From contig NZ_CP040899.1 of assembly GCF_006349365.1 (NCBI RefSeq), forward strand, positions 1,178,001 through 1,242,000: a DNA stretch of 64,000 nucleotides, read 5' to 3'. Shown piece after piece: positions 40,660-45,161 of the stretch. Under the pieces are notes generated by a model. It was not told the DNA's origin and did no database searches. It worked only from the letters and a program-made list of their open reading frames with translations. Position 1 is the stretch's first letter. Each line of letters begins with the position of its first letter. Origin of the DNA: Georgenia wutianyii (GTDB taxonomy: Bacteria > Actinomycetota > Actinomycetes > Actinomycetales > Actinomycetaceae). The translations under genes were made by a program, and so were the position numbers.

Positions 40660-41652
40660 ATGAGCATGACCACCACTGACGCCGGGCCCCGCGCCCGGTC
40701 CGCCGGCCGGCTGCTGGACTGGCGGCTCCTCGTCGGGGCCGCCGTCGTCGGCCTGCTCCTCCTCGCCTCCCTCTTCACCGGCGTCTACGACGTCACGGGT
40801 GCGCCGGACGGGACGCAGATGTTCGCCATCACCCGTGTCCCGCGGACGATCGCCCTCGTCCTCGCCGGCGCGGCGATGGCCATGTCCGGGCTCGTCATGC
40901 AGCTGCTCACGCAGAACCGGTTCGTCGAGCCGACGACGACCGGCACGACCGAGTGGGCGGGCCTCGGCCTCCTCGCCGTCACCCTCCTCGTCCCCGGCGC
41001 GAGCATCGCCGCGCGCATGGGCGGGGCCATCGTCGCGGCGTTCATCGGCACGGTGCTCTTCTTCCTCGTCCTGCGCCGGGTGTCGCTGCGCTCCTCGCTC
41101 ATCGTGCCGATCGTCGGGATCATGCTCGGCGCCGTCGTCGGCTCGGTGTCGACGTTCGTCGCGCTGCAGACCGACATGCTGCAGAACCTCGGCGTGTGGT
41201 TCGCCGGGAGCTTCACCTCGGTGCTGCGCGGGCAGTACGAGCCGCTGTGGATCGTCGCGGTGGTGGTGGTCGTCGTCTTCGTCGTCGCGGACCGGTTCAC
41301 CGTCGCTGGGCTCGGCAAGGAGATCGCGACCAACGTCGGCCTCGACTACAACAAGGTCATCCTCCTCGGCACCGGCCTCATCGCCGTCGCCACCGGCGTC
41401 GTGACCGTCGTCGTCGGGAACCTGCCCTTCCTCGGCCTCATCGTCCCCAACATCGTCTCGCTCATCCGGGGGGACGACCTGCGCAGCAACCTGCCGTGGG
41501 TCTGCCTGCTCGGCATCGGCATCGTCGCGGCCTGCGACCTCGTCGGACGGACCATCATCATGCCCTTCGAAGTTCCGGTGTCCCTCATCCTCGGCGTCGT
41601 CGGCGCAGCCGTCTTCGTCGTCCTCGTCCTGCGGCAGCGACGCCGTGGTTAG
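40660..41652 (+). CDS. iron-siderophore ABC transporter permease (FecCD family, FatD-like)
   Basis: 330 residues from ATG 40660 (a second ATG at 40666 is possible; neither has a strong ribosome binding site). About nine or ten membrane helices with FecCD motifs: RVPRTIALVLAGAAMAMSGLVMQLLTQNRFVEP, TTTGTTEWAGLG, and NLPFLGLIVPNIVSLIRGDDLRSNLP. The cytoplasmic loop LIRGDD is where the ATPase couples. Overlaps the second permease by 8 bp. Confidence 0.9.
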   Translation: MSMTTTDAGPRARSAGRLLDWRLLVGAAVVGLLLLASLFTGVYDVTGAPDGTQMFAITRVPRTIALVLAGAAMAMSGLVMQLLTQNRFVEPTTTGTTEWAGLGLLAVTLLVPGASIAARMGGAIVAAFIGTVLFFLVLRRVSLRSSLIVPIVGIMLGAVVGSVSTFVALQTDMLQNLGVWFAGSFTSVLRGQYEPLWIVAVVVVVVFVVADRFTVAGLGKEIATNVGLDYNKVILLGTGLIAVATGVVTVVVGNLPFLGLIVPNIVSLIRGDDLRSNLPWVCLLGIGIVAACDLVGRTIIMPFEVPVSLILGVVGAAVFVVLVLRQRRRG

Positions 41653-42709
41653 CCTCATGCCCGCTCGGACCACCGCACCCGTCCCGGTCCCGGCCGTCCC
41701 CGCTCGGCGCCGCAGCTCGGGCCCGCTGCCGACCGCCCGCTCCCGGCGCCGGTACTGGCTCGTCGTCGCCGGGCTCGCCGGCCTCGCCCTCACCCTCGCC
41801 GTCGGCCTCGTCTGGTGGGACAACCCGATGCCCGCCGGCTCGGACGGCTTCTGGCGCATCGCCCAGCTACGGATGAAGAACGTCCTCGTCATGGCGATCG
41901 TCGCCTTCAGCCAGGCGATCGCCACGGTGAGCTTCCAGACGGTGACGAACAACCGGATCATCACGCCCTCGATCATGGGCTTCGAGTCCCTGTACATGGC
42001 GGTGCAGACGGCGGCGGTGTACTTCCTCGGCGCCGCGGGCGTCGTCGCCCTCACCGGCGTGCCCCAGTTCCTCCTCCAGGTCGGGCTCATGGTCGGCCTC
42101 GCGGTCGCCCTCTACAGCTGGCTGCTGTCGGGCAAGCACGCCAACCTCCACGTGATGCTCCTCATCGGCATCATCATCGGCGGCGGCCTCGGGTCGGTCT
42201 CGACCTTCATGCAGCGCCTGCTCACCCCGAGCGAGTTCGACGTGCTCACCGCCCGGCTCTTCGGCTCGGTCTCCAACGCCGACGCCGCCTACCTGCCGAT
42301 CGCGGTCCCCGTCGTCCTCACCGCCGGGACCCTGCTGTGGCTGCGCGCCAGGCGGCTCAACGTCCTCGCCCTCGGACGCGACGCGACGACGGGCCTGGGC
42401 CTGAGCCACCGCGCCGAGCTGGTCAAGGTGCTCGTCCTCGTCGCCGTCCTCATGGCCGTGTCCACCGCGCTCGTCGGGCCGATGACGTTCTTCGGGTTCC
42501 TCGTCGCGACTCTCGCCTACCAGTTCGCCGACACCCACGACCACCGCCACGTCTTCCCCGTCGCCGTCCTCATCGGCTTCGTCGTCCTCGCCGGCGCGTA
42601 CTTCGTCATGAACCACGTCTTCTACGCCCAGGGCGTCGTCTCGATCATCATCGAGCTCGTGGGCGGTGTCGTCTTCCTCGTCGTCATCCTGCGAAAGGGC
42701 CGCCTGTGA
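41645..42709 (+). CDS. iron-siderophore ABC transporter permease (FecCD family, FatC-like)
   Basis: 354 residues from GTG 41645; ATG 41657 is an alternative start. A basic cytoplasmic tail precedes about nine membrane helices: MKNVLVMAIVAFSQAIATVSFQTVTNNRIITPSIMGFESLYMAVQT (first conserved block), LLIGIIIGGGLGSVSTFMQRLL, LALGRDATTGLGLSHRAELVKVL and VGPMTFFGFLVATLAYQFADTHDHRHVFP. It forms a heterodimeric channel with the previous gene product. GTGA overlap with the ATPase gene. Confidence 0.9.
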   Translation: MVSLMPARTTAPVPVPAVPARRRSSGPLPTARSRRRYWLVVAGLAGLALTLAVGLVWWDNPMPAGSDGFWRIAQLRMKNVLVMAIVAFSQAIATVSFQTVTNNRIITPSIMGFESLYMAVQTAAVYFLGAAGVVALTGVPQFLLQVGLMVGLAVALYSWLLSGKHANLHVMLLIGIIIGGGLGSVSTFMQRLLTPSEFDVLTARLFGSVSNADAAYLPIAVPVVLTAGTLLWLRARRLNVLALGRDATTGLGLSHRAELVKVLVLVAVLMAVSTALVGPMTFFGFLVATLAYQFADTHDHRHVFPVAVLIGFVVLAGAYFVMNHVFYAQGVVSIIIELVGGVVFLVVILRKGRL

Positions 42710-43461
42710 TCACCCTGTCCGACGTCCGCAAGGACTACAGCAGCGAGGTCGTCATCGGGCCGGTCGACCTCACCATCCCCACCGGTGGCATCACCGCCCT
42801 CATCGGCCCCAACGGCGCCGGGAAGTCGACGCTGCTCACGATGATCGGCCGCCTCCTCGGGCTGGACGCCGGGACCATCGAGATCGCCGGCTACGACATC
42901 ACGAGCACCGCCTCCAAGGACCTCGCCAAGATCGTGTCGGTGCTGCGCCAGGAGAACCACTTCGTCACCCGGCTCACCGTGCGCCAGCTCGTCGCCTTCG
43001 GCCGCTTCCCCTACTCCAAGGGCCGCCTCACCGCCGCCGACGAGGAGCTCGTCAGCCAGGCGATCGACTTCCTCGAGCTCGGCGACCTCGAGGACCGCTA
43101 CCTCGACCAGCTCTCCGGTGGGCAGCGCCAGCGCGCCTACGTCGCCATGGTGCTGTGCCAGGACACCGAGTTCGTCCTCCTCGACGAGCCGCTCAACAAC
43201 CTCGACATGCGCCACTCGGTCCAGATGATGCAGCACCTGCGCCGCGCCGCTGCCGAGCTGGGACGCACGATCGTCGTCGTCCTCCACGACATCAACTTCG
43301 CCAGCCACTACGCCGACCACATCTGCGCCGTCAAGGACGGGAAGATCGCGGAGTTCGGGACGTGCGAGTCGATCATGGACGACGACGTCCTCACCCGGGT
43401 CTTCGACACCCCGGTCCGGGTCATCCCCGGCCCGAACGGCCCGCTCGCCGTCTACTACTGA
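42706..43461 (+). CDS. iron-siderophore ABC transporter ATP-binding protein
   Basis: 251 residues from GTG 42706. Complete ABC ATPase: Walker A GPNGAGKST, Q-loop VLRQENHFVTR, signature LSGGQRQRAYVAMVL, Walker B FVLLDEPLNNLD and switch His in VVLHDINFASHYAD. FecE/FepC-type subunit that powers the two permeases. Last gene of the iron-box operon. Confidence 0.95.
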   Translation: MITLSDVRKDYSSEVVIGPVDLTIPTGGITALIGPNGAGKSTLLTMIGRLLGLDAGTIEIAGYDITSTASKDLAKIVSVLRQENHFVTRLTVRQLVAFGRFPYSKGRLTAADEELVSQAIDFLELGDLEDRYLDQLSGGQRQRAYVAMVLCQDTEFVLLDEPLNNLDMRHSVQMMQHLRRAAAELGRTIVVVLHDINFASHYADHICAVKDGKIAEFGTCESIMDDDVLTRVFDTPVRVIPGPNGPLAVYY

Positions 43462-43470
43462 GGGCTCGCC

Positions 43471-43525
43471 GCGCGGAAGTCGGCTGTTGGAAGTCGGCTC
43501 TCGCGCGCAAGTCGGCTGTCGCGAG
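43471..43525. repeat. three degenerate copies of an 18-bp AAGTCGGCTGTCGCG repeat
   Basis: Units begin at 43475 (GGAAGTCGGCTGTT), 43489 (GGAAGTCGGCTCTCGCGC) and 43507 (GCAAGTCGGCTGTCGCGA), starting 9 bp after the ABC operon. The same sequence with one base change occurs as three exact tandem copies inside the SNF2 helicase gene at 61764-61817. Confidence 0.75.
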
Positions 43526-43754: not shown

Positions 43755-43784
43755 TTGACACGCGGAACGTGGCGCGACTAGCGT
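43755..43784 (+). promoter_or_regulatory. promoter of the riboswitch-controlled flavin monooxygenase
   Basis: A perfect TTGACA (43755-43760) and TAGCGT (43779-43784), 18 bp apart. The predicted start, near 43791, coincides with the first base-paired strand of the riboswitch. Confidence 0.8.
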
Positions 43785-43789
43785 CTGCG

Positions 43790-43931
43790 CCAGGTTCAGA
43801 GCACCAGTGCGCGCCTCGAGCGCGCTAAGCCCCGGCTTGCTGGTCGGCAACCCGCCACGTGCGGTGGGTGCCCCGGGTGATGACCTGGCCCCGCGACGAG
43901 CGCGGGGCAACGCGGCGCACCGACAGGTGCC
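43790..43931 (+). promoter_or_regulatory. SAM-IV-type S-adenosylmethionine riboswitch
   Basis: P1 is CCAGGTTCA (43790-43798) with TGACCTGG (43881-43888). Inside are ACCAG/CTGGT (43803-43807/43840-43844), a GC hairpin near 43809-43825, the core AAGCCCCGGCTTGCTGG with CGGCAACCC (from 43827), a hairpin GCCAC...GTGG and GTGCCCCGGGTGATGACC leading back into P1. After P1 come CCCCGCG/CGCGGGG (43889-43895/43901-43907) and GCACC/GGTGC (43917-43930). The SAM-I-like core with hairpins outside P1 is the SAM-IV pattern known from actinobacterial sulfur genes; the related SAM-I/IV variant class is the alternative. It should switch expression off when SAM is plentiful. Confidence 0.85.
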
Positions 43932-43952
43932 GAGCACGAAGGAAGTACGGCG

Positions 43953-44039
43953 ATGACCACGCACCAGAGCCCCCGGCCGATCACCAGCCGAAGCGGCGCC
44001 TCGATGTGCATGTGGGCTCGCCCCTGTATGTCCGCCTGA
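43953..44039 (+). CDS. 28-residue Cys/Met-rich putative leader peptide
   Basis: ATG 43953 has an excellent AAGGAAG site 7 nt upstream, and the frame closes with TGA 44037-44039. The N-terminus is MTTHQSPRPITSRSG and the tail MCMWARPCMSA: two Cys and three Met in the last eleven residues. It sits between the riboswitch and the monooxygenase gene. Short Cys-containing leader peptides are known before sulfur-metabolism genes in actinobacteria, where ribosome stalling at Cys codons reports cysteine supply. A role in sensing Cys and/or Met here is inference; a stand-alone peptide is the alternative. Confidence 0.7.
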   Translation: MTTHQSPRPITSRSGASMCMWARPCMSA

Positions 44040-44152
44040 GACATACCCGCGATGCCTCGGCCCCGAGCCGGCGCATCACCCCTGGGCCAGCCCCGGCCGC
44101 CGGCGAGTGACACGCCGCGCGCCGGACCCGGCGGCCCAGCCCACTTCCTTCG

Positions 44153-44169
44153 GGCGCGTCACACGCGCC
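44153..44169 (+). promoter_or_regulatory. hairpin before the monooxygenase start
   Basis: GGCGCGT (44153-44159) and ACGCGCC (44163-44169) form a 7-bp stem with a CAC loop, 23 nt before the ATG. It could be the second structure of an attenuator coupled to the leader peptide. No full set of alternative pairings could be worked out by eye. Confidence 0.35.
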
Positions 44170-44192
44170 GCGAGCCGAAACGGTGACCCGTC

Positions 44193-45161
44193 ATGTCCAC
44201 TGCCTTCCTCCCCACCCGCACCACCGAGACCACCTCGACCACGGCGACCATCGCCCTCGACCTCTCCGGCCTCGGCGCCCCCGCCCACGACCGCGGCGCG
44301 GCCGCCGGGCTGCCCGCCGAGCAGGCCAACCTCGTGCGCCTCGCCTCCTACGCCCGTGCCGCGCACAAGGGCGGGGTCTCCTTCGTCACGCTCGGTGAGG
44401 ACTTCCGCCTCCGGGCCGACGCCTCGCCGCGCGCCAACGCCTGGCTCGACCCCGTGATCGCCGCCCGCCGCATCAGCCCCAGCGCCGGCGGCACCGGGCT
44501 CGTCCCCAGCGTGCAGCTGGGCCGGGCGGACGCCGCCGTCGCCGCCGAGCTCGCCCAGTTCAACCGCAAGAGCGGCTCCTGGGCCGGCCTGCAGGTCTCC
44601 CGTGGGCGGGACGAGCGCGTCAGCGCGCTGCCGCAGCTCGGTGACCTGCTCGAGGACCTCATCCGCACCGCCGAGGCCCGCTCGAGCCAGCGGCCGACCG
44701 TCGTCCTGCCGCTGGAGCAGGAGGCCGAGCTGCCGGCCGTGGCCGAGCTCGCCGACGTCGTCCGGCTGCGCGAGGCGGACCTCGGGTGGGCGCGCGAGCT
44801 GCGTTTCGCCGTGCGCTCCGCGGCACGGGCCGCAGGGCGCCCGCCCGTCCGCGTCCTCGTCGACCTGCGCACCGTCATCGCAGCCGACTACGAGTCCGCC
44901 CGGGCGCGGGCCGACCTCCTCAGCGACATCGCCGGGGGCACCGGCTCCTGGGAGGGCGCGCTCGAGGCCGTCGGTACCGTCGGCGACGTCGTCACGACGA
45001 TCGAGAAGTGGCTCGAGGCCGGCGCGGCGGACGGGTTCGTCGTCCTGCCCGGCTCGATCCCCGCGGACGTCACCCGCCTCATCCGGGGGATCATCCCGGC
45101 GCTGCAGGCCCGGGGCCTCGTCGCGACGTCCGGCGCCGAGGTCGGGCGCGTCCGGGACTGA
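44193..45161 (+). CDS. luciferase-like (LLM class) flavin-dependent monooxygenase
   Basis: 322 residues from ATG 44193. A Thr-rich start, then a bacterial-luciferase-type barrel: IALDLSGLGAPAHDRG, LVRLASYARAAHKGGVSFVTLGEDF, DPVIAARRISPSAGGTGLVPSV, a shortened SGSWAGLQVSRG in place of the usual GxAGWNxVTS loop, VVLPLEQEAELPAVAELADVVRL, and DVVTTIEKWLEAGAADGFVVLPGSIP near the end. It resembles the NtaA/SnaA/DszA branch, which uses reduced flavin from a partner. The riboswitch and Cys/Met peptide upstream argue for sulfur scavenging from an organosulfur compound. The substrate and the flavin reductase are not identifiable here. Confidence 0.8.
   Translation: MSTAFLPTRTTETTSTTATIALDLSGLGAPAHDRGAAAGLPAEQANLVRLASYARAAHKGGVSFVTLGEDFRLRADASPRANAWLDPVIAARRISPSAGGTGLVPSVQLGRADAAVAAELAQFNRKSGSWAGLQVSRGRDERVSALPQLGDLLEDLIRTAEARSSQRPTVVLPLEQEAELPAVAELADVVRLREADLGWARELRFAVRSAARAAGRPPVRVLVDLRTVIAADYESARARADLLSDIAGGTGSWEGALEAVGTVGDVVTTIEKWLEAGAADGFVVLPGSIPADVTRLIRGIIPALQARGLVATSGAEVGRVRD

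Follow-up and report, generated by a model that had tools for sequence, protein, structure and literature searches.

The leader of a short gene with a luciferase-like (LLM) fold, found in a 3.45-Mb Georgenia-like genome, is read here as a two-input sulfur-limitation leader, in which a SAM-IV riboswitch and a small open reading frame (ORF) rich in Cys and Met codons would act in series; judging from the sequence comparisons below we give this reading a probability of about 0.7, and expression of the gene probably rises under a shortage of sulfur amino acids. The window, by which we mean the whole stretch of 64,000 nucleotides that was analysed (G000:C1:1178001-1242000), carries in order promoter-like boxes, the SAM-IV aptamer, an ORF of 28 codons led by a Shine-Dalgarno (SD) site, a spacer of 153 nt and a gene of 322 aa whose nearest named relatives are in Georgenia and Oceanitalea. 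These parts are present, they are conserved among relatives and the spacer covaries. If the reading is true, the locus is a natural two-input gate on a single mRNA, which reads the cofactor SAM by RNA folding and its precursor amino acids by the ribosome.

In the mechanism that we propose, one transcript would hold the SAM-IV aptamer, the SD-led leader ORF and, in the Georgenia, Occultella and Ruania lineages, a folded spacer (hairpins H1-H3, with an AGUGACA loop). Riboswitches of the SAM-IV class are taken to act as repressors at high SAM, and here too the aptamer would sense S-adenosylmethionine and lower expression when it is plentiful. A leader ORF whose sensed codons lie close to its stop is taken to relieve repression when the charged tRNA is scarce; here, ribosome stalling at the Met and Cys codons would report the supply of charged tRNA-Met and tRNA-Cys, and a stall would raise expression. 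The spacer element may then pass the state of the leader on to the LLM-fold gene in that group of lineages, so that the gene would be fully on only when both signals report sulfur amino acids to be short. Rho-dependent termination, mRNA decay and control of translation are the candidate output steps. We infer SAM binding, stalling and the sign of both effects from the arrangement of the parts.

The SAM-IV riboswitch

Upstream of the gene, boxes TTGACA (43755-43760) and TAGCGT (43779-43784) were recognised by eye, separated by 18 nt (all features described here lie on the forward strand); similar boxes are visible by eye in the sequences of relatives, and a scan for consensus promoters, which requires TATAAT, returned no promoter at the locus. 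The aptamer follows at 43793-43918, where an Rfam scan matched RF00634 with 55.4 bits against a gathering score of 38. The match covers model positions 1-116, so that both covariance score and full length place it in this family, and it is the sole Rfam match in the window at gathering scores. A SAM-IV-type riboswitch had been proposed in the first-pass annotation, and the strong match from this covariance-model check bears the proposal out.

Homologues of the gene were sought in 59 genomes including its own (31 with a match at E<=0.001), in 213 genomes of the family (42 at E<=1e-30) and in GTDB species contigs, from which 80 loci were kept. The upstream regions of 60 of the relative loci collected were scanned with Rfam; among those not included were L012 and L097-L105, of which many are duplicates, as well as the full-length LLMs and L177-L184. 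SAM-IV was found in 37 of the 60 (18/20, 5/20 and 14/20 in the three batches) and was not found in the other 23. The aptamer of the window shares with other SAM-IV riboswitches (RF00634) a full covariance match, a sulfur context and an actinobacterial host. In a sample of 60, however, the typical SAM-IV riboswitch stands mostly a short way before a metY-like or aminotransferase-like gene, as judged by eye, with no such ORF between them, whereas in the window the leader ORF and then another folded element come after the aptamer.

A second SAM-IV riboswitch lies elsewhere in the same genome, outside the window, at G000:C1:2191526-2191639 (positions 1501-1614 of L001; also L062), and scores 66.8 bits. 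The gene after it is an ORF of about 135 aa with a TTG start and a Cys-rich N-terminus, TTPAPCTVGACCRSYSPGHLMHHIHTG, which is unrelated to the LLM-fold gene; genome G001 (L053) has a similar arrangement.

The leader ORF and its conservation

The leader ORF, MTTHQSPRPITSRSGASMCMWARPCMSA, occupies 43953-44039 and is preceded by the SD site GAAGGAAG at 43938-43945, about 20 nt past the end of the aptamer. Its tail reads MCMWARPCMSA, and both the strong SD site and the 28 codons are as first described. The ORF starts about 160 nt past the predicted promoter (the transcript start is itself a prediction), behind the aptamer and with its own SD, and it is thus not a leaderless polycysteine sORF, for which the ORF would stand at the start of the transcript. 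Cys and Met make up 5 of its 27 residues. A claim of unusual Cys/Met density had been made from this peptide; the density proved to be conserved across loci, but the leader of the window by itself is only modestly enriched (first-order Markov resampling, p 0.048; binomial, 1.1e-3 at an assumed background of 3%), and the case for a sulfur leader therefore rests on comparison.

Leaders were searched for by a script that accepts SD-led ORFs of 15-60 codons with at least three Cys or Met beyond the start. Such an ORF follows the aptamer at 37 of the 38 SAM-IV loci of the LLM-fold gene (the window and 37 relatives), a count of loci and not of independent events, as several are near-identical (for instance L107/L080; L004/L005/L007); the 23 loci in which SAM-IV was not found were left out of it. 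Ahead of other genes, SAM-IV loci were positive in just 3 of 22 cases, namely a Cys leader of the HIDL type, the doubtful L050, and a locus of G007 with the tail CMCTCECRR. When the script was applied to 60 strong SAM-IV loci of the order, six were flagged, of which four belong to the LLM-fold gene, one is a classic Cys leader, again of the HIDL type, and one is an artefact, an out-of-frame overlap with metY. These controls were hand-picked from among the SAM-IV places listed for 149 genomes of the order and all score at least 95 bits, so that strong aptamers are over-represented. The leaders of L258 and L276 are those of L114 and L152 over again, L234 is truncated by the end of its contig, and no gene could be recognised at L242 and L275. 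Taken together, the counts of 37/38 against 3/22, and of 6/60 in the control, indicate that the leader goes with the LLM-fold gene and not with SAM-IV riboswitches in general.

The leaders of relatives vary in sequence and in length but retain Cys and/or Met near their end, as seen in the tails MCMCGRPCMSV, MCCCPMPAMSA, TCMMCCCSMSA and CMCMCLCVTA and in MCMCMCRSRMSL, MCMSMCCRSRMSA, LCMRMPMCQRMSA, PMCCCPMPAMSAMPVQA and MMCGTPCACMCMR; one tail, RRMRMWHKSMA, has Met without Cys, and that of L115, CPCP...IACCR, has Cys without Met. At 37 of the 38 loci the gene is thus preceded by a short conserved ORF with the presumably sensed codons near its stop, as in a leader-peptide attenuator. The exception, L013, has the SAM-IV match, and after its start codon the ORF there contains a single Met and no Cys. 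Conversely, L011 keeps the leader and the spacer element and has no SAM-IV match. Either sensor can therefore be lost while the other stays, as would be expected of two inputs more than of a single composite RNA. Among the 23 loci without SAM-IV, a Cys/Met-bearing sORF is present in at least L011, L017/L076 and L023, and an sORF with two Met in L018 and L079. The arrangement put forward in the first-pass annotation, a SAM riboswitch and a Cys/Met leader in series before one gene, appears from this comparison to be well founded, and the small ORF, whose conservation was there named as a check, is indeed conserved.

The spacer RNA element

The spacer between leader and gene is a covarying RNA element in the Georgenia, Occultella and Ruania lineages. 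It comprises a hairpin, H1 (GTATGTC/GACATAC, 44026-44046), with the leader stop codon inside its loop; a stem, H2 (GATGC/GCATC, 44051-44077), which is GACGC/GCGTC in some relatives; and H3 (44082-44139), made of an outer stem CTGGGCC/GGCCCAG and an apical stem GGCG/CGCC that closes the loop AGTGACA (44106-44112). Fourteen spacers were aligned, and pairing and covariation were counted on a structure taken from single folds, in which 91.1% of cells are paired. The covariation score of H2 and H3 together was 0.295 compared with 0.145 +/- 0.020 in shuffles, none of 500 being as high, and it fell to 0.046 or less when the partner strand was slid. H2 pairs in 14/14 sequences, with changes on both sides in one of five pairs. 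The outer stem of H3 is paired in 79.6% of cells, its innermost pair being unpaired in 10 of 14 sequences, and has both-side changes in two of seven pairs, while the apical stem is 100% paired with both-side changes in three of four (GGCG/CGCC, GGUG/CACC, CACG/CGUG); the loop is AGUGACA or differs from it by 1-3 letters throughout the 14 spacers. Two of the five measures were weaker, with six pairs with both-side changes against 3.6 in shuffles (16/500 shuffles as high) and 12 further pair types against 11.5 (239/500 shuffles).

A covariance model of the element, R1, was run on 58 sources and returned 28 matches at E<=1e-4, among them loci outside its training set (for example L011, 66.6 bits; L109 of Ruania, 31.9 bits), and the genome of the window has one significant copy; the element is absent from the Rfam matches of the window. 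Among 198 genomes of the order there were 13 matches at E<=0.01; the ten with E<0.002 all precede the LLM-fold gene (L190-L197 and two of the genus), and around the three weakest the script detected neither a SAM-IV core nor a leader nor the LLM-fold gene. At E<=1e-4, R1 found nothing in the loci of Pseudactinotalea, Actinotalea, Miniimonas, Serinibacter, Cellulosimicrobium, Cellulomonas and Flaviflexus, and the element was accordingly rejected as a universal part or general output device. The stop-codon hairpin H1 is similarly restricted: in shuffle tests it gave p 0.004 in the window and p<=0.04 in 15 of 16 Georgenia-clade loci, and it was rejected as a universal part since p lies above 0.05 in all 10 of the loci tested outside that clade.

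Shortly ahead of the gene, ACTTCCTTCG (44143-44152) is complementary over 10 bp to the leader SD region CGAAGGAAGT (43937-43946), a length that none of 400 shuffles reached, and a perfect complement of 9-10 nt is found at this place in six genomes of the genus. Relatives with the leader SD GAAGGACGT carry ACGTCCTTC ahead of the gene. This compensatory case is suggestive only, as a leader of the GAAGGACGT type also finds 9 nt in the spacer of L008 and the mean helix length over 25 loci is 6.56 for cognate and 5.84 for foreign pairs. A universal helix between leader SD and anti-SD was rejected, since 19 loci outside the genus have 5-7 bp, with p<0.05 in two.

Output step and alternative explanations

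No intrinsic terminator was found at the locus of the window. Compared with an attenuator hairpin, the leader has covarying hairpins in part of the lineages, no terminator and no predicted switch. Unmasking of the ribosome-binding site (RBS) of the gene by a stalled ribosome was rejected, as a ribosome footprint on the Met/Cys codons gave no predicted rise in RBS opening in 21 loci (mean 0.39-0.40, against 0.46 when free and 0.40-0.42 in controls). Published actinobacterial Cys leaders have no evident terminator either, and Rho has been suggested for them (PMC1262725).

The Met and Cys codons might instead be a by-product of RNA structure, ATGTGC repeats having been kept for pairing with the RBS of the gene. 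In eight loci of a sister genus (g22) the control-codon strand does pair with the RBS better than with shuffled ones (z -1.4 to -4.2), but the effect is weaker in the genus of the window (z -0.4 to -1.5) and mixed outside, and elsewhere leaders carry Cys and Met in other sequence contexts, so that this explanation seems very unlikely. As a general mechanism, direct pairing of these codons as an anti-RBS strand was rejected, being strong only in the sister genus and with cognate pairs close to foreign ones (-18.4 and -17.8 kcal/mol, 26 loci). There is rather more to be said for SAM acting on translation of the leader, with the leader as a landing-pad uORF that delivers ribosomes to the gene and its Cys and Met residues incidental. 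The aptamer ends near enough to the leader SD, the calculated folding gives no stall effect, and ppe2 of Mycobacterium tuberculosis offers a published precedent (PMC11260477). We nonetheless regard it as unlikely, because Cys/Met content is retained while the rest of the leader drifts and the 104-273 nt from leader stop to gene (26 loci) are ill-suited to termination-reinitiation.

The same drift bears on the idea that a small functional protein, for instance one that binds metals or thiols, is made from the ORF. The leader is Cys-rich and its position is conserved, as such a protein would be; however, 10 of 11 leader pairs have more nonsynonymous than synonymous raw differences (69 to 15 in total, counts that are not corrected for site numbers and come from overlapping pairs), lengths range from 25 to 43 aa and the number of Cys from 0 to 5, and nine leaders compared with NCBIfam matched none of its families, so that no known leader-peptide family was recognised there. 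Drift with Cys and Met kept is expected for a codon sensor and not for a working peptide; the substitution pattern speaks against a bioactive leader peptide, and this is the most improbable of the explanations considered.

The two-input leader is thus the reading that we retain. A more far-reaching version of it holds that the locus represents a new class of hybrid leader, a SAM aptamer and a Cys/Met sensor in series serving as a sulfur-starvation coincidence detector, which would act through the new H1-H3 element in Georgenia, Occultella and Ruania and would have been kept on one gene across several actinobacterial families while the product, once an FMN monooxygenase, decayed into an LLM-fold protein that uses no flavin and has taken on a new function. 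This version is tentative, at somewhat under an even chance, and is made less likely by the absence of the spacer element from several lineages.

The LLM-fold gene product

The gene (44193-45161) encodes a protein with the luciferase-like TIM-barrel fold, the NtaA/DszA fold being kept, and to that extent its description as an LLM protein stands. That it is a working flavin monooxygenase does not follow, as its score against TIGR03860 (NtaA/DmoA) is 55.3 compared with a curated cut-off of 279.7, and its further description as a flavin enzyme that may release sulfur finds no support either. Monooxygenases of the NtaA/DmoA/DszA type (TIGR03860) have about 390-470 aa and the FMN motifs; the protein of the window has 322 aa and lacks them. 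We take YNxPYxLA, GRAGWN and QAGSS to be the FMN-site motifs of the NtaA/DmoA family. Full-length relatives carry them, whereas the protein of the window has GRADAAVA, SGSWAGLQ and VLPLEQEAE at the FMN-site positions, and what had been described as a shortened GxAGWNxVTS loop is better seen as a lost motif (SGSWAGLQVS). A full-length LLM partner within the genus was rejected, none of six genomes having a match over the TIGR03860 cut-off. The family is thereby singled out as one in which the flavin site seems eroded and sulfur control retained.

In Cellulosimicrobium (L115, 2881-5451, and L121), SAM-IV and a Cys leader are followed by two consecutive LLM genes, of which, in L115, the first is barely over the NtaA/DmoA cut-off and the second well over it. 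This may be a pair with an inactive partner, by analogy with LuxA/LuxB.

Comparison with known systems

Leaders that read the supply of an amino acid through a short ORF are known from several bacteria. Cysteine leader peptides of Actinobacteria have reportedly been treated by Canestrari in 2020. Those of an earlier study share with the leader of the window a short ORF with Cys near the stop, the lack of an evident terminator and a place before sulfur genes (Seliverstov 2005, PMC1262725). The leader of the window differs from them in being SD-led behind a riboswitch and not leaderless, in its mixed Cys/Met content and in the covarying spacer of part of the lineages. The metL leader before metNIQ in Streptomyces lividans is similar in its mixed Met/Cys tail, GARCMCRRMCAF, and in having no clear terminator, but in the sections of that paper at hand it is described as leaderless, no riboswitch is named and the gene is a different one (PMC8079986).

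Other leaders combine a ligand-sensing RNA with a further input. In Salmonella mgtA a Mg2+-sensing riboswitch is joined to the proline leader mgtL; as in the window, one 5'UTR has a ligand read by RNA and tRNA read by a leader ORF, but ligand, amino acid and phylum are different and the ORF lies inside the ion-sensing RNA, whereas in the window it comes after the aptamer (PMC6460261). A Xanthomonas SAM-I riboswitch senses uncharged tRNA-fMet, and SAM and methionine supply are integrated in one leader, as in our model; there, the tRNA is bound directly by the RNA, while in our model a translating ribosome would read the codons (PMC7270179). B12 riboswitches with uORFs at ppe2/metE of M. tuberculosis likewise unite an actinobacterial riboswitch with a translated uORF, but that of ppe2 overlaps the gene and works by reinitiation, with no codon sensing claimed in the part of the report that could be seen (PMC11260477). 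A riboswitch with a codon-sensing leader is thus already known. In the open-licence literature searched we recognised no description of a SAM-IV riboswitch followed by a Cys/Met leader. The locus makes testable an old puzzle, namely by what step the Cys leaders of actinobacteria control their genes when no terminator is present. For one group of lineages, the covarying spacer element offers a concrete candidate for this missing output device.

Other loci and flanking regions

In G007 (L185, G007:C1:2523500-2527500, reverse strand), a SAM-IV riboswitch is followed by the Cys leader MQINSAAPRATTASSLMAACMCTCECRR and then by two genes that, judged by eye, encode a YeeE/TsuA-like transporter and a TusA-like protein; this locus, with the tail CMCTCECRR noted above, has the same tandem of aptamer and leader at another sulfur gene. 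L043 and L265 have SAM-IV and then an HIDL-type Cys leader (..RRHIDLQRTDSAVCPR), which in L265 stands before a secreted-looking ORF of 388 aa.

An operon with downstream genes was rejected for the LLM-fold gene, since ORFs of the window at 34-54 kb match the neighbours of 15 loci only within the genus; outside it there are just weak matches of an ABC-ATPase frame. Upstream of the SAM-IV unit, the window has a siderophore-type ABC transporter at 41645-43461, at the site where sister genomes (L087, L095 and L097) have instead an ORF of about 630 aa, flanked by a flavin-reductase-like gene on one side and the SAM-IV locus on the other. Three short direct repeats of AAGTCGGCT are visible by eye at 43478-43518, in the gap that separates the ABC transporter gene of the window from the promoter region of the SAM-IV unit.
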